Assembly (NCBI GenBank): GCA_017541365.1
Contig: JAFXZF010000020.1
Location: 1 to 60,312 of the forward strand
Origin: Prevotella sp.
GTDB taxonomy: Bacteria > Bacteroidota > Bacteroidia > Bacteroidales > Bacteroidaceae
Direction: 5' to 3'
Length of the DNA stretch: 60,312 bases
A program made the translations under genes and the position numbers. The notes under the pieces were generated by a model that had not been told where the DNA came from, searched no databases, and saw only the letters and a list, made by a program, of their open reading frames with translations. Within the stretch, counting starts at the first letter, position 1; every line of letters starts with the position of its first letter. Below, piece by piece: positions 20,052 through 60,289 of the stretch.

Positions 20052-21020
20052 TTATGAGAAAAACTGCGAGAGCAGTGGTATGGTCAGCAATGACATTATC
20101 GTGGTGGTAAACGTCAGTTCCGTCATCAGGGTAGTGTCCTTGCCGTTTATCAGGCACAGTATGGTGCCGTATGTCGCTACGGGCATGGCGACGATCACCG
20201 TATTGATGTTTACCACGTATTCGCTGAATCCCATAGCGCTGAACAACAAGTAGAGAGCACCAGGTATCAGCACCAGTCGGCATACCGATGTGGCATACAC
20301 CGTCACGTTGCCCAGCATCGACTTGCCCGATAGCTGTGCCATCGTCGAACCTATGATGAGCAGTGCCCCCGGCACGGTGATGTTGCCCACCATGGTGAGA
20401 GTCTTGCTTATCTCCGTAGGAATCCCCTTTATGCCCGCCGCCACGATTATCATTGACATGTAGGCAGCAATCATTGGAGTGCTGTACAGCACCTTCTTCT
20501 TGAATTTTCTCTTCAGGTTTTCGTAGCTCCGAAGGAGCGTTTCGTTTTCGTTAAGGTTATCGTTAACGTTATCGTCCCCGTTAGCAATCAGCATATTCCC
20601 CACCGTAAACACGAAAAAGGTGTTAGCCACGTTGAGTATGGCAGCATAGAATACCGCTTCATAGCCGAATATGCTCGCCACTATAGGGTAGCCTATGAAC
20701 CCTACGTTGCCAAACATCAGTGCGAAGCCCACTACGCCCATGTCCTCCCTTCTGCGCGTCAGCAGTCGGGGTAGGGTAAGGCTCACCCCCGTCAGCAGTA
20801 TGTAGGTGAGAAAACTTATGCCCAGCAGAGGCAGTATCATGTTGCGGTCGGGTAGGATGTCTCCCATCGTCGATGACAGTATCAGTGCCGGACATGTGAT
20901 GTTGACTATAAGGGCAGAGAGCTTCTTGTCAAACTCCTCATTCATATATCCCACCTTGCCGGCAATGAAGCCGATGACCACGATAGCCACCAGTGATATC
21001 ATTACTTCCAAATTAGCCAT
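20052..21020 (-). CDS. AEC (auxin efflux carrier) family transporter
   Basis: A 322-residue inner-membrane protein of about ten helices in two halves. It has the AEC features GFIAGKVGYMNEEFDKKLSA in helix 1 with its loop and VNITCPALILSS (Asn/Pro-containing unwound helix), repeated in the second half as TMVGNITVPGALLIIGSTMA. Family members export organic acids such as malate or malonate; the substrate here is unknown. The middle cytosolic loop (residues about 147-176) is encoded by repeat elements (20517-20577): two 12-nt units giving DNVNDNLNEN, then a GTTTCGTA-hairpin element giving ETLLRSYEN. The gene follows the L,D-transpeptidase by 6 nt. Confidence 0.92.
   Translation of the reverse strand: MANLEVMISLVAIVVIGFIAGKVGYMNEEFDKKLSALIVNITCPALILSSTMGDILPDRNMILPLLGISFLTYILLTGVSLTLPRLLTRRREDMGVVGFALMFGNVGFIGYPIVASIFGYEAVFYAAILNVANTFFVFTVGNMLIANGDDNVNDNLNENETLLRSYENLKRKFKKKVLYSTPMIAAYMSMIIVAAGIKGIPTEISKTLTMVGNITVPGALLIIGSTMAQLSGKSMLGNVTVYATSVCRLVLIPGALYLLFSAMGFSEYVVNINTVIVAMPVATYGTILCLINGKDTTLMTELTFTTTIMSLLTIPLLSQFFS
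20517..20577. repeat. GTTTCGTA mini-hairpin element plus 12-nt repeats, in frame in a gene
   Basis: GTTTTCGTA (20517-20525), hairpin GCTCCGAAGGAGC (20526-20538), GTTTCG, then GTTAAGGTTATC and GTTAACGTTATC (20550-20573). Confidence 0.85.
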
Positions 21021-22856: not shown

Positions 22857-22881
22857 ACCTTGTTTTTGTGCTATTTATGTG

Positions 22882-22912
22882 CAAAGTTACGAAAAGTCGA
22901 GCACAAAACAAA
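22882..22912 (-). promoter_or_regulatory. Promoter of the TSCPD - L,D-transpeptidase - AEC unit
   Basis: TTTG (22909-22912), 19 nt, TAACTTTG (22882-22889) on the minus strand: full consensus. Confidence 0.85.
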
Positions 22913-23045
22913 GAAACTCCTTTCTTTTTTTGTCGAGACGGAGTAACTTGACTCAGCACGAGTCAGAGTTACATTTTTTTTAAAGTGGGTACAAACGTGA
23001 TTTATTTCTTTTGTTGAGCGTGAGAAAAATACCATAAAATAGGTA

Positions 23046-23221: not shown

Positions 23222-23579
23222 ATTATGCCGTCTATGCATACCTTCCAACATGCTGATGCTATGATATAACATTATCTTCTGTCATTAAGTGACAATTCCT
23301 TTGTCGTCTCAACAACCTAAGTTCGCTTCGCCATTTTTTATGGAAGTACGAAAAAAATAATAAAAAACATTCTTAAGGTAAATATTCCCCCATGTTTTTT
23401 ATGAATAAAGTGTTTTTAATTGCTTCAGTATCAATATGTTTCTATACTATAAGGTTTGAACGCTGATTATGTTTAGTCGGTAAAAACGGTTAAATAGCAT
23501 GTGACAGGAGCAGTTCGGCAATGCAAAAAGCCAAGTGTTGAAGACAGCGTGCTAACCATCACAAATATAGGCAGTTACT
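23222..23579. other. Gap with no recognisable gene
   Basis: AT-rich sequence with only a 21-codon frame at 23401. I see no further signal here. Confidence 0.4.
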
Positions 23580-23660
23580 AAAACATATCCTTTTGGCCTC
23601 TAAAAGGATATGTTTTAGCCCTCAAAAGGATAACTTTTAGCCCCTAAAAGGATATGTTTT
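23580..23660. repeat. 22-bp phased array of AAAAGGATATGTTTT units
   Basis: Four 15-nt units start at 23580, 23602, 23624 and 23646. The first is the inverse (AAAACATATCCTTTT), so units one and two can form a perfect 15-bp hairpin. The 7-nt spacers are GGCCTCT, AGCCCTC and AGCCCCT. Confidence 0.9.
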
Positions 23661-27472: not shown

Positions 27473-27545
27473 TACACCCTCAGGGATTCGAACCCTGGAC
27501 CCACTGATTAAGAGTCAGTTGCTCTACCAACTGAGCTAAGGGTGC
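27473..27545 (-). tRNA. tRNA-Lys (anticodon CTT)
   Basis: A 73-nt cloverleaf: acceptor GCACCCT/AGGGTGT, D arm AGCTCAGTTGGTAGAGC, anticodon stem ACTGA/TCAGT with loop CTCTTAA (anticodon CTT, reads AAG), and T arm with GTTCGAATC. Discriminator A. CCA is not encoded (ACA follows). Confidence 0.95.
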
Positions 27546-27643
27546 ATGCTTTTTGTAATTGCGAGTGACAAACGTGTTCGCACAAAGCAAAAAACGAGTG
27601 TCTGTGCAACAGGCTCGTGTAAGCCTTAGCTTTTTTGCGAGTG

Positions 27644-27651
27644 CAAAGGTA
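27644..27651 (-). promoter_or_regulatory. -7 element upstream of tRNA-Lys
   Basis: TACCTTTG on the minus strand; the GTTGAAA heptamer array begins 9 nt upstream of it. The leader before the tRNA would be about 90 nt. Confidence 0.65.
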
Positions 27652-27660
27652 CTAATAAAA

Positions 27661-27688
27661 GTTGAAAGTTGAAGGTTGAAAGTTGAAA
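27661..27688. repeat. Heptamer array (GTTGAAA), 4 units
   Basis: GTTGAAA, GTTGAAG, GTTGAAA, GTTGAAA in tandem directly upstream of the tRNA -7 box. Confidence 0.9.
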
Positions 27689-27743
27689 GTTTACTCGTTT
27701 TTAGCGTTTATTAACAAACACAAGTAGGTAACCTTGATATTTA

Positions 27744-28667
27744 TCAGTTTATCTTGTCGATATCGTATGGGGTCTTCTGGTAGATGTAGTAGTTGACCCA
27801 GTTGTGGTAGAAGAGGTTGGCATGGGCGCGCCATGTGACGTTGGGACCCTTGGCAGGGTCGTTGTCGATATAGTAGTTGACGGGCATGGCGACGTCGTCG
27901 CGCTTATCCATATCGCGCTTGTACTCGGTGTCGAGGGTGTCGGGGTTGTACTCCAGATGACCAGTGACGAAGATTTCTCTGCCTTCACGAGCTGCTGCTA
28001 TGCCGATGCCTGAGAGTGGCGACTCGGCGAGGACAGTGATATCGGGGATGGCGAGCACGTCTTCGGAGTTGATCTCGGTGTGGCGACTCTGGGGCATATT
28101 GAACTTGTCATCGAAACCACGGAAGAGAGGTTTGTTTGCCTCGTCGGGGTTGATGGTCTGAGGGAAGATACCAAAGAGCTTCTTGGGCAGCATGTGTTTC
28201 TCGATGCCATAGAAATGGTAGAGTGCTGCCTGAGCTGCCCAACATATATATAAGGTGGAGGTGACATGGGTGCGAGCCCAGTCGAAGATGCCGCTTATCT
28301 CATCCCAATAGGTGACGTCCTCGAAGGGTTTGTCTTCAACAGGAGCACCTGTGATAATCATGCCGTCAAACTTACGGTTGCGCAGTTCCTCGAAGTTGAT
28401 GTAGAACTGCTTCATGTGTTCGATAGGAGTGTTCTTTGAGGTGTGCGACTTGAGTTTCATGAAGGTGATGTCAAGTTGCAACGGAGTGTTGGAGAGTAGG
28501 CGTATGAGGTCTGTCTCGGTGGTTATCTTCAGTGGCATGAGGTTGAGTACCACGATCTTGAGGGGACGGATGTCCTGTGAGTGACCGCGTGTCTCGTCGA
28601 TGACGAAGATGTTTTCGTCTTCGAGCAGCTTTATTGCTGGTAGGTTATCGGGGAGTCGTAGGGGCAT
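27744..28667 (-). CDS. metA: Homoserine O-acetyltransferase (MetA family)
   Basis: Acylates homoserine, the first committed step of methionine synthesis. It has 307 residues. The catalytic cysteine is C142 (YICWAAQAALY), and H237 and E239 (VTGHLEY) complete the triad. The acyl-selecting residue 111 is Glu (TGAPVEDKPF); in this family Glu here goes with acetyl-CoA and Gly with succinyl-CoA, so acetyl transfer is expected. No SAM riboswitch is visible upstream; instead there is a repeat-filled gap of 159 nt after the ABC-F gene. Confidence 0.94.
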   Translation of the reverse strand: MPLRLPDNLPAIKLLEDENIFVIDETRGHSQDIRPLKIVVLNLMPLKITTETDLIRLLSNTPLQLDITFMKLKSHTSKNTPIEHMKQFYINFEELRNRKFDGMIITGAPVEDKPFEDVTYWDEISGIFDWARTHVTSTLYICWAAQAALYHFYGIEKHMLPKKLFGIFPQTINPDEANKPLFRGFDDKFNMPQSRHTEINSEDVLAIPDITVLAESPLSGIGIAAAREGREIFVTGHLEYNPDTLDTEYKRDMDKRDDVAMPVNYYIDNDPAKGPNVTWRAHANLFYHNWVNYYIYQKTPYDIDKIN

Positions 28668-28679
28668 ATCTTAATGGTT

Positions 28680-28760
28680 CAAAAGTTCAAGAGTTTAAAA
28701 GTTCAAGTCGCTTCGCTGGTTCAAACGCTCGCTGGTGCGAGCTAGTTCAAGAGTTCGAAA
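28680..28760. repeat. GTTCAA-type repeat tract with mini-hairpins
   Basis: GTTCAA recurs about six times, first with short AT spacers, then around GCTTCGC and the hairpin GCTCGC-TGGT-GCGAGC. It runs straight into the GTTTCGTA array. Confidence 0.75.
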
Positions 28761-28761
28761 G

Positions 28762-28830
28762 TTTTCGTAGCACCTTTAAGGTGCGTTTCGTAGCGAAGCG
28801 TTTCGTAAGTGCAAAGCACTGTTTCGTTAT
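28762..28830. repeat. GTTTCGTA / mini-hairpin array, 3 hairpins
   Basis: GTTTTCGTA - GCACCTTTAAGGTGC (28771-28785) - GTTTCGTA - GCGAAGC (28794-28800) - GTTTCGTA - AGTGCAAAGCACT (28809-28821) - GTTTCGTTA. The last TTA is the complement of the ABC-F stop codon. Confidence 0.9.
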
Positions 28831-30752
28831 ATGTTATTAAAGTATTCTTCTTCAAGTTTCTCGAGTTCTGCCTGCAGGTCGGTATATTCGTTTACCATCT
28901 GCATGTTGGCACCGTTTTCGGGCAGCATTAGGAGGTTGTCGAGTTCTGCCTTGCGTGTTTCGAGTTTCTCTATTTTTTCTTCGAGTTGCTTTTGGCGCTT
29001 AGACTCCCTCCTTGATTCTCTCTTTGGGGGTGGGGAAGTATTACCCTTGTCTTTGTGCTTCTTATTGACTTTGGGCTCATTTGGTTCTACTCTCTTCGAG
29101 AGAGGGGTTAGGGGTGAGTCTTTGTTTATCGCCTCATTGATGGTCTGTGCATTCTTGGTGCGCAGGTAATCGTATATGCCACCGAGGTGCTCGCGTACTG
29201 TGCCTCCGCCAAATTCATAGACCTTGTCAACGAGTCCATCAAGGAACTCACGGTCGTGGGATACTACGATGACGGTGCCGTCGAATGCCTTGATGGCTTC
29301 CTTGAGCACATCTTTGCTCATCATGTCGAGGTGGTTGGTGGGCTCGTCAAGTATGAGGAAGTTGACGGGCTCGAGCAACAGGCGTATCATGGCGAGGCGT
29401 GAGCGTTCGCCTCCTGAGAGGAACTTGACGTATTTGTCGCTCTCCTCGCCTCCGAACATGAAAGCGCCGAGGATGTCCTTTATGCGCAGGCGTATCTCGC
29501 CGCGTGCCACGTTGTCGATGGTCTGGAAGACGGTGAGACTCTCGTCGAGCAACTGTGCCTGGTTTTGGGCGAAATAGCCTATCTGTATGTTATGGCCTAC
29601 CTTGAGTGTGCCTTCAAAGGGTATCTCTCCCATGATGCACTTAACGAGGGTGGACTTGCCCTCACCGTTCTTGCCCACGAAGGCTACCTTCTCGCCACGC
29701 TTGATGGTGAGTGCGACATCGTGAAAGACATTGTGCTCGCCATAGTCTTTCTTGACCTCATCGCAGATGACGGGGTAGTCGCCTGAACGGAGGCAGGGAG
29801 GGAACTTGAGGCGCAGGGCTGAGTTATCCACTTCATCTACCTCGATGGGCACTATCTTCTCCAGCTGGCGTATGCGCTGCTGCACCTGCACTGCTTTGGT
29901 TGCCTGATAGCGGAAGCGCTCTATGAATGCCTTGGTGTCGGCTATCTCCTTCTGCTGGTTTTCGTAGGCGCGGAGCTGCTGCTCACGGCGCTCCTTGCGC
30001 AGAACGACGTACTCATCGTACTTCACGCGGTAGTCGATGACGTGCGAGCAGGATATTTCGAGGGTGCGGTCGGTTACATTATTTATAAAGGCACGGTCGT
30101 GGCTGACGAGCACCACTGCCTGCGAACTGCTTGCGAGAAACTGCTCGAGCCACTGTATGGACTCGATGTCGAGGTGGTTGGTGGGCTCGTCGAGGAGTAT
30201 AACGTCATGATGGTGCAGAAGGAGCTTGGCGAGTTCGATACGCATGCGCCATCCTCCTGAGAACTCTGACGTGGGACGGTCGAAATCGGTGCGCTCAAAC
30301 CCCAGACCAATAAGGGTGCGCTCCATCTCAGCCTCTCGGCTCTCGGCTCCCATCATGAGGTATCGCTCATGGGCGAGGGTAAAGCGCTCCACCAGTTCCA
30401 TATAGGAGTCGCTCTCGTAGTCGGTGCGCTCCTCCATTTCTTTCTGCAGTCGGTCCACCTTTGCCTTCATCTTGTCGACATCGGCGAATGCCTTGCGCGT
30501 CTCTTCACGCACGGTGGTGTCGTCCTGTAGGTTCATCACCTGTGGCAGGTAGCCTATGGTGCAGTCGTTGGGCACTGAGACGGTGCCTGAGGTGGGTGTC
30601 TTGATACCAGCAAGGATTTTGAGCATAGTAGATTTGCCTGCGCCGTTTTTTCCGACGAGGGCTATACGATCACGCTCATTGATAACAAACGAAACGTCTG
30701 CAAACAATGGCTTAACGCCAAACTCTACTTTTAAACCTTCTACTGATATCAT
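28827..30752 (-). CDS. ABC-F family ATPase (ribosome-associated)
   Basis: It has 641 residues, with two ABC ATPase cassettes and no membrane part. Walker A motifs are GKNGAGKST (near 36) and GKNGEGKST (near 350), with signatures FSGGWRMR and LSGGERSR and Walker B ILLDEPTNHLD and LILDEPTNHLD. The ARE/P-site linker between cassettes is at about 235-320. ABC-F proteins act on stalled ribosomes or ribosome assembly. The C-terminal extension (~550-641) has a low-complexity part (SPLTPLSKRVEPNEPKVNKK) whose DNA holds a CTCTC/GAGAG palindrome, then a coiled coil. The start overlaps the aroE stop as ATGA. Confidence 0.92.
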   Translation of the reverse strand: MISVEGLKVEFGVKPLFADVSFVINERDRIALVGKNGAGKSTMLKILAGIKTPTSGTVSVPNDCTIGYLPQVMNLQDDTTVREETRKAFADVDKMKAKVDRLQKEMEERTDYESDSYMELVERFTLAHERYLMMGAESREAEMERTLIGLGFERTDFDRPTSEFSGGWRMRIELAKLLLHHHDVILLDEPTNHLDIESIQWLEQFLASSSQAVVLVSHDRAFINNVTDRTLEISCSHVIDYRVKYDEYVVLRKERREQQLRAYENQQKEIADTKAFIERFRYQATKAVQVQQRIRQLEKIVPIEVDEVDNSALRLKFPPCLRSGDYPVICDEVKKDYGEHNVFHDVALTIKRGEKVAFVGKNGEGKSTLVKCIMGEIPFEGTLKVGHNIQIGYFAQNQAQLLDESLTVFQTIDNVARGEIRLRIKDILGAFMFGGEESDKYVKFLSGGERSRLAMIRLLLEPVNFLILDEPTNHLDMMSKDVLKEAIKAFDGTVIVVSHDREFLDGLVDKVYEFGGGTVREHLGGIYDYLRTKNAQTINEAINKDSPLTPLSKRVEPNEPKVNKKHKDKGNTSPPPKRESRRESKRQKQLEEKIEKLETRKAELDNLLMLPENGANMQMVNEYTDLQAELEKLEEEYFNNI

Positions 30753-31495
30753 TTATTCCAAATCTCCCATCCTGCCTGTGCCTGTAGGAGGAGCATCTCG
30801 AGTCCATTTTTCGTGATGGCTCCCTTTTGTTTTCCTTTTTTGAGGAAGAGGGTTTCATCAGGGTTGTATATGAGGTCGAAGAGCAGATGATGCGTGGTAA
30901 GGGCCTCATATGGTATGTTGGGACACTCATCGAAGTGTGGTGCCATGCCTTTTGGAGTGCAGTTGACGATGACGGTGTACTCCTCGAGCAACTGTGGTGT
31001 AATCTGTTCGTAGGTGATGGTGTCGTTCTTGTGGAAACGACTTACGAGGAGCGTGTCGAGACCCAACTGGCGCAGTCCGTAGTTGACGGCCTTGCTTGCG
31101 CCTCCTGTGCCGAGTACGAGTGCTTTCTTGTGAAAGAGAGGATTGAGCAGTGGCTGTATACTACGTGTAAAACCTATGATGTCGCTATTGAAACCTTCGA
31201 GGTGTGGTGTGCCATTATCCCTGTGTGTGACCTTGACGACATTGACGGCTCCTATGGCACGTGCCTCAGGCGATATGTAGTCGAGGTATGACATGACCTT
31301 CTCCTTATAGGGGATGGTGACGTTGAAACCACACAGTTCGGGTGTGTAGTCGAGTACAGCCTGTAGGTCGGTGATGACGGGCAGTTCGTACTTCTCATAC
31401 ACGGCGTCGATTTTCTCATTTTGAAACTTCTCGTTGAAGTATCCTGGTGAGAACGAGTGTCCGAGAGGATAGCCTATGATACCAAATTTTTTCAT
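30749..31495 (-). CDS. aroE: Shikimate dehydrogenase
   Basis: NADPH-dependent reduction of 3-dehydroshikimate to shikimate in aromatic amino acid synthesis. It has 248 residues from ATG 31495. Shikimate-binding motifs are GYPLGHSFSPGYFN and FNVTIPYKEKV (catalytic Lys), with the NADP loop VLGTGGASKAVNYGL. It is slightly short (typical ~270). It is 8 nt downstream of menG and coupled to the ABC-F gene. Confidence 0.94.
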   Translation of the reverse strand: MKKFGIIGYPLGHSFSPGYFNEKFQNEKIDAVYEKYELPVITDLQAVLDYTPELCGFNVTIPYKEKVMSYLDYISPEARAIGAVNVVKVTHRDNGTPHLEGFNSDIIGFTRSIQPLLNPLFHKKALVLGTGGASKAVNYGLRQLGLDTLLVSRFHKNDTITYEQITPQLLEEYTVIVNCTPKGMAPHFDECPNIPYEALTTHHLLFDLIYNPDETLFLKKGKQKGAITKNGLEMLLLQAQAGWEIWNK

Positions 31496-58767: not shown

Positions 58768-58801
58768 ATCTGTAAATTTTGAGTTGACGAGTTTACTTGT
58801 T

Positions 58802-58829
58802 AACTGTGAACTGTCAACTGTGAACTGTT
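58802..58829. repeat. Heptamer array (AACTGTG), 4 units, at a stop codon
   Basis: AACTGTG, AACTGTC, AACTGTG, AACTGTT; it contains the stop codon of the oxidoreductase (58814-58816). Confidence 0.88.
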
Positions 58830-60289
58830 TTCAACACTTCCTCGCACGTGTATTTCGCCGTCATCACCACGCCGTGCAGTCCGTGCAGCATGAGGCTCTG
58901 CCCTGTGAGGAAGAGGTTGGGCAGCGGTGTCCTTGGTGAGAGTATCGTGCCCAGCACGTTGCTGTAGTCCTTGCGGAGTCCGTAGGCTGAGCCGTATGGC
59001 GAATTGTTGTACGTGTAGTAGGTCAGTGGGGTAGAGGTGTAGCTCCGCTCTATCATGTCTGTCAGTCCAGGTATCACCTGCTCGGCAAGTGCCAGGCACT
59101 GGCGACTGATGTTGTTCTTCATCTCCACGTAGTCGTCACCACGCTTTCCTGGTGTCTTGTCAGCCCAAGGTTCCACGCACTCCCACTTCATCGGGGTGAG
59201 TATGTCCACCACGTTGGCGTAACAGTTTTCGTAGCGAAGCGTTTCGTAGCCCGCAGGGCGTATCGTAGCCGCAGGCGTTTCGTACTCCGTAGGAGTCGGG
59301 CAACTTATCAATACCCCCTTCACTTCATGCCTGTCAGGCTCCACCGCTATATTGCTCCACACATCATCGGTGGCATATACGAACTTATTGTGATTGAAGT
59401 ACTTTAGTGCACCGGGCTTGAGCTTTAGTTGCAGGGTGAACATGCCACACGTATTCTTCATTGTCGTCATGCGCATGCGGAATATCTTCTTTATCACGCA
59501 GCTGTCCTTTATCATGTTTACCGTCACTGCGGGGTGGGCATCAGATATAAAGGTGTCAGCCTCAAACTCCCTGCCGTCACTGCATACGGCCTTGGCGATT
59601 CTGCCGTCCTGCTCCTTCAGTTCCACCACGTCGGCGCTGCATACCACCTCGCCGCCATGCTGCTCTATCTGGTCTGTGAGGCGCCTTACCAGCATGTTGC
59701 CGTCGCCCATCAGTCGCCAACTGCTCTCTATGAAACTGCCGTTGCCGTGGGCAAAGGTGAAGAGGGGCAGCGTCTTCTTGCGTAGCTCCATCTTGAGGCT
59801 CGCTCCGCTGATGATGCTGATGAGCAGTTTGCTGCGTATGATGGAGCACAGGTACTCGTATGCATTGGTCTGCTGCAACCACTGTTCGTCGGTAGTCTGC
59901 AGCATCTCCACATACTTCTCCAGTCCCTCGCGCTCCTCTGGGAAGTGCTTCGCCAGTTCTTCGACGAAGTTCTCATATCCCTCTTTGAAGCGGTACGTCC
60001 TGCCCCCTATCGTTATCTCGTCGAAGCCCTCTGGGTCGAGCCTTTGCCAAGGCAGGTCGAGCAGCCCCAGTTCCTTGAAGGCATCGTGCAGCGGCTGTCC
60101 CTCATCCAGTCCGCCCACGTAGTGCAGACCCGTGTCGAGCATGCACCCCTGGCGCTTATAGCTCTGCATACAGCCTCCAGGCTGCCACTGCCTCTCGAGC
60201 ACCAGCACCCTCTTGCCTGCACGGCTCAGCGTCACTCCGCATGCCAAGCCACCCAGTCCGCTACCTATTATAATAACGTCGTACTTCAC
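58814..60289 (-). CDS. CrtI-like NAD(P)/FAD-dependent oxidoreductase
   Basis: It has 491 residues from GTG 60289 (KYDVIIIGSGLGGLACGVTL). The N-terminal dinucleotide motif GSGLGGLACG with LERQWQPGGCMQSY and the C-terminal LPNLFLTGQSLMLHGLHGVV are typical of phytoene-desaturase/retinol-saturase relatives. About 25 residues near 325-360 (TPTEYETPAATIRPAGYETL, then RYEN) are encoded by a GTTTCGTA-hairpin array; this segment looks inserted in a loop. The C-terminal TVHS comes from a heptamer tract. It is first in an operon with lolA and the thioesterase. Confidence 0.88.
   Translation of the reverse strand: MKYDVIIIGSGLGGLACGVTLSRAGKRVLVLERQWQPGGCMQSYKRQGCMLDTGLHYVGGLDEGQPLHDAFKELGLLDLPWQRLDPEGFDEITIGGRTYRFKEGYENFVEELAKHFPEEREGLEKYVEMLQTTDEQWLQQTNAYEYLCSIIRSKLLISIISGASLKMELRKKTLPLFTFAHGNGSFIESSWRLMGDGNMLVRRLTDQIEQHGGEVVCSADVVELKEQDGRIAKAVCSDGREFEADTFISDAHPAVTVNMIKDSCVIKKIFRMRMTTMKNTCGMFTLQLKLKPGALKYFNHNKFVYATDDVWSNIAVEPDRHEVKGVLISCPTPTEYETPAATIRPAGYETLRYENCYANVVDILTPMKWECVEPWADKTPGKRGDDYVEMKNNISRQCLALAEQVIPGLTDMIERSYTSTPLTYYTYNNSPYGSAYGLRKDYSNVLGTILSPRTPLPNLFLTGQSLMLHGLHGVVMTAKYTCEEVLKTVHS
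59225..59296. repeat. GTTTCGTA / mini-hairpin array, 4 hairpins, in frame in a gene
   Basis: GTTTTCGTA - GCGAAGC (59234-59240) - GTTTCGTA - GCCCGCAGGGC (59249-59259) - GTATCGTA - GCCGCAGGC (59268-59276) - GTTTCGTA - CTCCGTAGGAG (59285-59295). Confidence 0.9.

Follow-up and report, generated by a model that had tools for sequence, protein, structure and literature searches.

Known bacterial palindromic repeats keep the sequence of their stems, and sequence and shape are therefore inseparable as the target of selection or copying. In organelles, the fungal double hairpin elements form hairpins of divergent sequence that are scattered and show intergenic spread. In the parts of the literature that describe them, REP/BIME elements and the GTAG- and CGTC-tagged repeats are short hairpins, single or clustered, dispersed in spacers and sometimes in coding sequence, with a short motif next to the hairpin and with a strand polarity (PMC3733652, PMC6006769). 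Rickettsia palindromic elements (mentioned in PMC3733652; see also PMC10969869) can sit in frame inside protein genes. The repetitive hairpin-forming elements of sponge mitochondria keep their fold while their scattered, intergenically spread sequences diverge (PMC2800124), and the coding palindromes of Nematomorpha mitochondria are perfect inverted repeats kept even in genes (PMC6649704), in both cases according to the passages devoted to them. As far as the relevant sections of the sources go, template-switch hairpins illustrate a mutational route to perfect stems (PMC8794818), and the BrickBuilt minisatellite/MITE of Porphyromonas gingivalis is an example, within Bacteroidales, of tandem short repeats with a strain-variable copy number (PMC4596501).

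Hairpin arrays in the window

The window is the whole stretch of 60,312 nucleotides of Prevotella sp. DNA. A preliminary description of it had noticed a constant octamer alternating with different perfect mini-hairpins. One relative is Prevotella sp. RGIG9994 (G001), the source of locus L088, which is 88-95% identical to the window; other relatives are the assemblies UBA4332 (G356), UBA2738 (G522) and RGIG5030 (G705). The features discussed below are as follows.

28763-28828, + strand: TTTCGTA array of four boxes and three hairpins (GCACCTTTAAGGTGC, GCGAAGC, AGTGCAAAGCACT), read directly; it sits between an ABC-ATPase ORF (28827-30752, - strand) and a homoserine O-succinyltransferase ORF (27744-28667, - strand)
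59227-59296, + strand: TTTCGTA array of four boxes and four hairpins (GCGAAGC, GCCCGCAGGGC, GCCGCAGGC, CTCCGTAGGAG), read directly
20519-20546, + strand: single unit TTTCGTA-GCTCCGAAGGAGC-G-TTTCGTT with one hairpin, read as TTTCGTA-GCTCCGAAGGAGC-GTTTCGTT
28701-28757, - strand: array with a second linker (TTGAAC type), holding GCGAAGC and GCTCGCACCAGCGAGC; the same sequence is found in locus L257 of G001
30749-30755, no strand: junction of two overlapping ORFs, with presence or absence of an array between relatives

The first array runs TTTCGTA-GCACCTTTAAGGTGC-GTTTCGTA-GCGAAGC-GTTTCGTA-AGTGCAAAGCACT-GTTTCGTT, and its last box overlaps the stop codon of the ABC-ATPase ORF. Within 28701-28828 it adjoins the TTGAAC-type array, which has the opposite polarity. 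The array at 59227-59296 runs TTTCGTA-GCGAAGC-GTTTCGTA-GCCCGCAGGGC-GTATCGTA-GCCGCAGGC-GTTTCGTA-CTCCGTAGGAG-T and is antisense within a FAD-dependent amine-oxidase-like ORF (58814-60289, - strand), at about residues 332-355, where the frame is open. The single unit is antisense within an ORF of the Mem_trans family (20052-21020, - strand), whose frame also stays open.

The octamer had been called constant; the box, of TTTCGTA type, is only nearly so, as the variant GTATCGTA and a terminal GTTTCGTT also occur. Two further arrays had been announced as well: one is indeed present at 59227-59296, but the stretch at 20519-20546 is one unit only and no array, since the exact octamer GTTTCGTA is absent there. 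Whether this octamer is commoner than chance was a check proposed with the preliminary description, and it is: the window holds six copies where 1.15 are expected, and none of 100 shuffles reaches six. Four of the six lie within the two larger arrays.

Other repeats are found nearby. A dispersed repeat of about 85 bp at 27634-27718, just downstream of the homoserine O-succinyltransferase ORF, has dozens of matches in G001, G356, G522 and G705, mostly at about 80-96% identity. Short stretches at 23578-23660, 22880-22972 and 58798-58828 also recur many times in relatives, those of 23578-23660 in both orientations. At the gathering threshold, the sole Rfam match in the window is a tRNA gene (27473-27545, - strand), and Rfam has no match at the window arrays.

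Pairing and turnover of the hairpins

A first contig scan used the pattern TTTCGTAGCN{3,22}GCGTTTCGTA and returned 96 stretches: 69 belong to records with the title Prevotella, Prevotellaceae, Bacteroidaceae, Muribaculaceae or Sodaliphilus, many of them from ruminants or horses, one belongs to a Cloacimonetes record (L021), and the others are 26 scattered records. Because this pattern presets two base pairs (GC...GC), an unbiased count was taken on the whole of G001 with TTTCGTAN{3,33}GTTTCGTA, in which a hairpin is not demanded. It gave 47 matches, against two with the reversed pattern. Perfect hairpins, 29 of them distinct, make up 42 of the 47 inserts, where shuffling yields a mean of 1.5 and a maximum of 6 in 1000; the remaining five are two units fused via a degenerate box.

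The same holds more widely. In the loci of 14 assemblies together with the window, 198/225 inserts are perfect (loop of at most 6) against 8.8 when shuffled, and for inserts of at least 11 nt in these loci the count is 122/149 against 2.1. Each array in the 225-insert count was required to contain at least one hairpin; with one hairpin per array removed, 102/129 are still perfect. These array statistics omit the loci of the 26 scattered records, L021, which has one two-unit array, and 120 viral loci. Overlapping loci were deduplicated by sequence context and the array at 28763 was merged with its identical copy in G001, so that the window contributes two arrays. The 225-insert set and a 268-insert set used below (5' box ending in A; 226 good) rest on different box definitions.

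Hardly any credence is left for the reading in which box and palindrome pair up by chance or through an assembly artefact, and the present results refute it. The gapped pattern does match unrelated genomes too, at chance level. Of the 28 inserts in the 26 scattered records without arrays, where the pattern presets GC...GC, five can pair. A viral control (IMG/VR, same spacing pattern, at least 120 stretches) has no hairpin in 104 deduplicated inserts among the matches listed, on which scope viral carriage of the arrays was also rejected. Against chance or artefact stand the 42/47 perfect inserts of G001 beside a shuffled mean of 1.5, the presence of arrays in assemblies from different projects and their sharing between orthologous sites. 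The alternation of boxes with variable, nearly always self-complementary inserts is thus real, in G001 as in the wider loci; the outcome that the preliminary description had named as damaging, inserts elsewhere that mostly fail to pair, did not occur.

The stems covary. Among 30 distinct 13-nt inserts (two misparsed double boxes kept in), 96.7% of cells are paired against 60.9% when shuffled, and the covariation score is 0.933 against 0.218 when shuffled and 0.043-0.144 with slid partners. For 35 distinct 15-nt inserts, 92.9% against 61.5% are paired, with a score of 0.818 against 0.206 (slid, 0.037-0.113). What appears to be the same unit in G001 and G705 differs by a compensatory change (GGGCTGCAAGCCC, GGACTGAAAGTCC), and two Muribaculaceae-type loci provide a series with a G-T intermediate (GGCCACGCAGTGGCC, GGTCACGCAGTGGCC, GGTCACGCAGTGACC). 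The earlier idea that hairpins are copied or templated fits these compensatory stem changes.

Presence and absence at orthologous sites had also been suggested for comparison, and the arrays do differ between relatives. At site 20517, both G001 and G522 carry GTGAGCTTGCTCAC, GGCGCTTGCGCC and GCGAAGC/GCGCAGC, the window has another hairpin, and G705 and G356 have no such boxes. Between G001 and G522 the order of the hairpins is shared while the four boxes all differ alike (TTTCGT vs TATCGT). The array at 28763 has the same hairpins in L088 of G001 and is absent in G356 and G522, and the array at 59227 is absent in G356, G522 and G705. At the junction 30749-30755, G001 has a 206-bp insert made of a five-hairpin TTTCGTA/TATCGTA array and a TTGAAC-type array; the window has none, G522 has another array with different long hairpins, and G356 has other spacer DNA.

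How units are added is constrained by their neighbours. Neighbouring long hairpins (at least 9 nt) are identical in just 1/48 cases, and those of different arrays of one genome in 38/2910. Since neighbours are no more alike than random hairpins, simple tandem duplication is not the origin of the arrays, and duplication of whole units was rejected. Neighbouring linker variants agree in 294/342 cases, against 248 on average and at most 270 in 2000 within-genome shuffles. Within an array, then, linkers resemble each other and hairpins do not depend on their neighbours, a pattern that plain unit duplication would not produce.

Two further observations concern the spacers. TTTCGTA arrays in L022 (4480-4770), L045 (580-800) and L030 (5618-5800), which are one Prevotellaceae and two Muribaculaceae/Sodaliphilus records, occupy the same spacer beside a conserved ORF, and owing to their opposite orientation these sites look like shared hot spots, less like one inherited array. 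In L003, L006, L018, L029, L088 and L253, degenerate 8-9 nt tandem repeats (for example AGTTCACAGTTCATAG, AGTTGATAGTTGATAG) often lie 5' of arrays, so that the spacer DNA of these genomes is partly built of short degenerate repeats.

The hairpin module, its strand and its carriers

In 221/225 inserts a G lies directly 3' of the hairpin, and 194/198 stems begin with G. The 226 good hairpins of the larger set comprise 120 distinct sequences. Hairpins of the same kind are also strung on the second linker. By a loose rule, 23 of 55 TTGAAC-TTGAAC gaps of 7-26 nt hold a hairpin, with A on the 5' side in 18/23, G on the 3' side in 19/23 and a GNA loop in 12; these scans covered the non-viral loci minus the dropped records, including loci taken for Y1 matches only. 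At one orthologous site, TTTCGTA arrays are found in L026 and a TTGAACC array in G001. When hairpins with a repeated 6-7-mer on either side were sought de novo, the TTTCGTA and TATCGTA types came first by far; TTGAAC types came next, at 3-7 cases apiece and interspersed with low-complexity repeats. As the same hairpins occur in the TTGAACC linker, the octamer is dispensable and the constant module is A-[stem-loop-stem]-G. This also speaks against a protein obliged to bind the octamer, one of the two possibilities raised in the preliminary description. GNA hairpins lie beside a third repeat kind, CTTTGCGTAA or CTTTGCGTGA, in L036 (3529-3654, and 4626 on the - strand), L075 (2370-2492) and L008 (2024); these repeats are possibly another linker family.

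The loops distinguish the two strands. On the box strand, with one count per genome, GNA triloops outnumber TNC by 64 to 4 (P 6e-15), and by 21 to 4 for stems of at least 5 bp; for such stems GNA and TNC together account for 25/59 triloops, against 111/774 for triloop hairpins that lie elsewhere in these loci, not in arrays (P 7e-7). In 59/63 hairpins with a 2-bp stem the loop is GNA (48) or GNNA (11). Among DNA tetraloops, cGNNAg and gCNNGc are stable ones. Of 28 imperfect inserts, 13 depart from perfect pairing by precisely a tandem G-A/A-G mismatch, and all 13 come from the Muribaculaceae/Sodaliphilus trio; such tandem pairs are known to be stable on the box strand only. The minihairpin d(GCGAAGC) and GNA loops are described, in the part of the source concerned, as extraordinarily stable in DNA (PMC11101458, citing Hirao 1994, Yoshizawa 1997). 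Against this, ViennaRNA DNA energies put the three arrays of the window only weakly to moderately ahead of shuffles (z -0.6 to -3.0), with no clear preference for the box strand.

With ORFs called by simple rules and no gene caller, 28 of 96 arrays lie inside ORFs (26 antisense, 2 sense), 41 between co-directed ORFs, 9 between divergent and 9 between convergent ones, and 9 at contig edges. The 26-to-2 excess of antisense arrays agrees with the TAG stop present in CGTA-G on the box strand. Between co-directed ORFs the two orientations are taken 22 and 19 times (P 0.76). It is quite improbable that the arrays work at the RNA level by stabilising, attenuating or terminating mRNA: while a good share of them lie at most 20 bases from a called ORF end, and CTTG and some GNA loops are good RNA loops as well, this even orientation contrasts with strongly strand-specific loops, Rfam has no match at the arrays at its gathering threshold, and an mRNA function was rejected on the lack of orientation bias. 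Because the loops are strand-specific although intergenic arrays face genes either way, folded single-stranded DNA is favoured over mRNA. We infer that the units fold as single-stranded DNA.

The arrays are rare. Among 349 genomes sampled from the family of G001, only G001 (47) and G118 (11) are prominent, the rest having at most 4 matches. Among 398 sampled from its genus, the genomes rich in hairpin units are G001 (47), G522 (26), G356 (19) and G705 (10); G534 has 3 units and some others match up to 5, while G695 (10) and G550 (6) match via a different 22-bp tandem repeat. Genomes reached via loci have 25 (G732), 14 (G735), 11 (G733 and G118), 4 (G737), 3 (G734 and G534), 2 (G739 and G736) and 1 (G738 and G740) pattern matches, some of which are not hairpins. 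In the genus of G732, titled Muribaculaceae and from a horse, a stricter pattern matches 3/101 genomes, all three already known. From these family and genus counts, the arrays are rare in each sampled genus and occur in at least two separate groups, which by record titles are Prevotella-type and Muribaculaceae/Sodaliphilus.

Far outside Bacteroidales, L021 (Cloacimonetes, G736) has one two-unit TTTCGTA array with the hairpins GCAGAGC and GCGGAGC. Through the reversed control pattern, dozens of 22-bp repeats surfaced in other genomes of the sampled genus, G359, G545, G558, G601 and G661 (loci L361-L370); they are often in tandem, and in them the octamer ATGCTTTG is constant and the other 14 nt vary; the 22-bp repeat of G695 and G550 is a TTTCGTAC... 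counterpart.

A host service, for instance the buffering of supercoils by cruciforms or the binding of a nucleoid or repair protein that accepts whatever stem is present, is in our opinion unlikely. It would agree with arrays kept in place where flanks differ by about 17-24% (G001/G522 at site 20517; G001/G705 at L034/L082) and with the great stability of GNA hairpins reported in the source quoted above (PMC11101458, citing Hirao 1994, Yoshizawa 1997), but relatives differ in whether they have arrays at the window sites and the 30749 junction, the 96 arrays have no common gene context, and within the sampled genus they are confined to a small number of genomes.

The preliminary description had suggested that a Y1/RAYT transposase might co-occur with the arrays. 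PF01797 (Y1) has no match in any of the six Prevotella-type array assemblies (G001, G356, G522, G705, G735 and G534, the last counted as array-bearing with only 3 units), so that this co-occurrence is not borne out there. It is present in G732 (12), G733 (5), G734 (8) and G118 (2), and in 21 of the 40 genomes searched. Likewise, PF00078 (RVT_1) has no match in these six assemblies, nor in G118 and G734, and is present in G732 and G733. Both a RAYT/Y1 link and a reverse transcriptase (telomerase-, retron- or DGR-like) were rejected for the six on these searches. For loss of SbcCD as a cause of hairpin accumulation, SbcD was compared between carriers and others: it is above the cut-off in 2/12 array carriers (G732, G733) and in 6/24 array-poor genomes, the other 18/24 array-poor genomes being without a match above it too. 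As assembly completeness is unstated, the lack of a gene says little in either direction.

These searches bear on a possible, if less probable, explanation than the one we prefer: that a trans-acting enzyme, neither Y1 nor reverse transcriptase, would recognise, in single-stranded DNA, the shape of the mini-hairpin (A-G foot, GNA-type loop) and copy or insert it, the linkers being targets or target duplications and either the factor or the arrays having spread horizontally between Prevotella-type and Muribaculaceae-type bacteria. It ranks close behind template switching because the same rules hold in two groups and with two linkers. Indeed, TTGAACCAGN{4,26}CGTTTGAAC matches 3/398 genus genomes, G522 (16), G001 (6) and G356 (5), all TTTCGTA-rich; for three TTGAACC-positive genomes among the four TTTCGTA-rich ones of 398, the hypergeometric P is 4e-7 if genomes are independent, a value that ignores kinship, as these genomes may be one clade. 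The trio among 101 genomes of another genus follows the same rules, loops are strand-specific with constant A/G edges, and one and the same gene junction may have the insert in one genome and lack it in another. No candidate gene was found, however, PF01797 and PF00078 being without a match in 6/6 Prevotella-type array assemblies. A bolder form of the proposal seems to us possible, though clearly less likely than not: the arrays would be a structure-only DNA replicator, in which a mini-hairpin of free sequence is recognised and re-copied by its folded single-stranded shape and planted into interchangeable direct-repeat scaffolds by a putative hairpin-reading activity that spreads horizontally.

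Our tentative preference, held at somewhat less than even confidence, goes to small structure-maintained DNA hairpin repeats, REP-like yet distinct, that would be renewed by template switching and by exchange between linkers. In these repeats the shape is kept and the stem sequence is nearly free; the loop, on a particular strand, is often a GNA, GNNA or CTTG loop, and short direct repeats (TTTCGTA, TATCGTA or TTGAACC) would serve as the scaffold. They would most likely live as REP-like selfish or neutral spacer DNA, in which case neither a dedicated enzyme nor a host function would be called for. During replication, the hairpin may fold on single-stranded DNA; template switching could then re-copy one arm from the other, giving perfect stems and compensatory changes, and slippage or microhomology between linkers could homogenise these and drop or shuffle units. 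According to the part of the source concerned, perfect hairpins can arise and persist through template switching (PMC8794818).

Such renewal by template switching is consistent with perfect pairing, covariation, compensatory differences and the G-T series, with the GNA strand bias and the 22 vs 19 gene orientation, and with linkers that agree within arrays and differ at site 20517 where the hairpins are shared. The near-random identity of neighbouring long hairpins (1/48, near the 38/2910 between-array rate), the A (18/23) and G (19/23) edges in the second linker and the lack of Y1 and RT matches in the six assemblies argue for it too. It fits less well in several respects: a passive process without transfer leaves the same box and module rules in two separate groups unexplained, strand-specific loops and A...G edges resemble recognition by something, and 2-bp stems (GCGAAGC) are too short for repair through arm copying. 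The window-array folding energies (z -0.6 to -3.0) do not clearly favour the box strand, and since neighbours are not duplicates, simple slippage adds no units.

Comparison with known systems

The preliminary description had set the arrays apart from REP/BIME, with their conserved stem, and from CRISPR, and the variable palindromic inserts uphold both distinctions. In the REP literature consulted here in part, a family shares its stem, while the present arrays vary their stems even within one array, with 120 distinct of 226 hairpins overall and 29 of 42 in G001. As for a 5' tag of GTAG/GGAG type, CGTA-G does precede most hairpins, but its G is the first paired base, and where the linker is TTGAACC the hairpin is mostly preceded by CCA. 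The Y1 partner of RAYT-associated REP/BIME is without a match here, in the Prevotella-type six only; from derivatives of IS200/IS605, with their cognate TnpA and conserved subterminal hairpins, the arrays differ by the same lack of a PF01797 match in these six and by their variable stems. The spacers are short hairpins, unlike the non-palindromic unique spacers of CRISPR, and the arrays differ from diversity-generating retroelements and retrons in that PF00078 has no match in the six assemblies. Integron attC sites have R boxes GTTRRRY/RYYYAAC, and by eye GTTTCGT misfits GTTRRRY. Rickettsia palindromic elements are longer and of one sequence family, while the units here are of 7-17 nt, of free sequence and in arrays. 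For mitochondrial hairpin-forming elements we know of no constant octamer and no loop strand rule.

These elements are organellar, and from what is given of them the present arrays behave alike, their covariation showing a fold kept while the sequence diverges, but are not members (PMC2800124). Nematomorpha palindromes and template-switch hairpins, as covered in the sections concerned, do not form dispersed arrays of short units, nor are they bound to linkers (PMC6649704, PMC8794818). BrickBuilt has a 23-nt unit without spacers and a leader and tail with inverted-repeat ends, and the portion of its description considered here mentions no variable hairpins (PMC4596501). In a search of open-licence papers, such arrays were not described among the matches listed, which is weak evidence of novelty.

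Altogether, these short arrays in a few gut Prevotella-like bacteria suggest that DNA can be kept or copied via its folded shape and not its exact letters. They provide a natural set of stable mini-hairpins in DNA, and a way to search for a new hairpin-dependent enzyme or for template switching as it happens in vivo. With the shape kept and the sequence free, on one strand, with two linkers, in and out of genes, it becomes directly testable whether palindromic repeats spread because their sequence is recognised or through folded single-stranded DNA.
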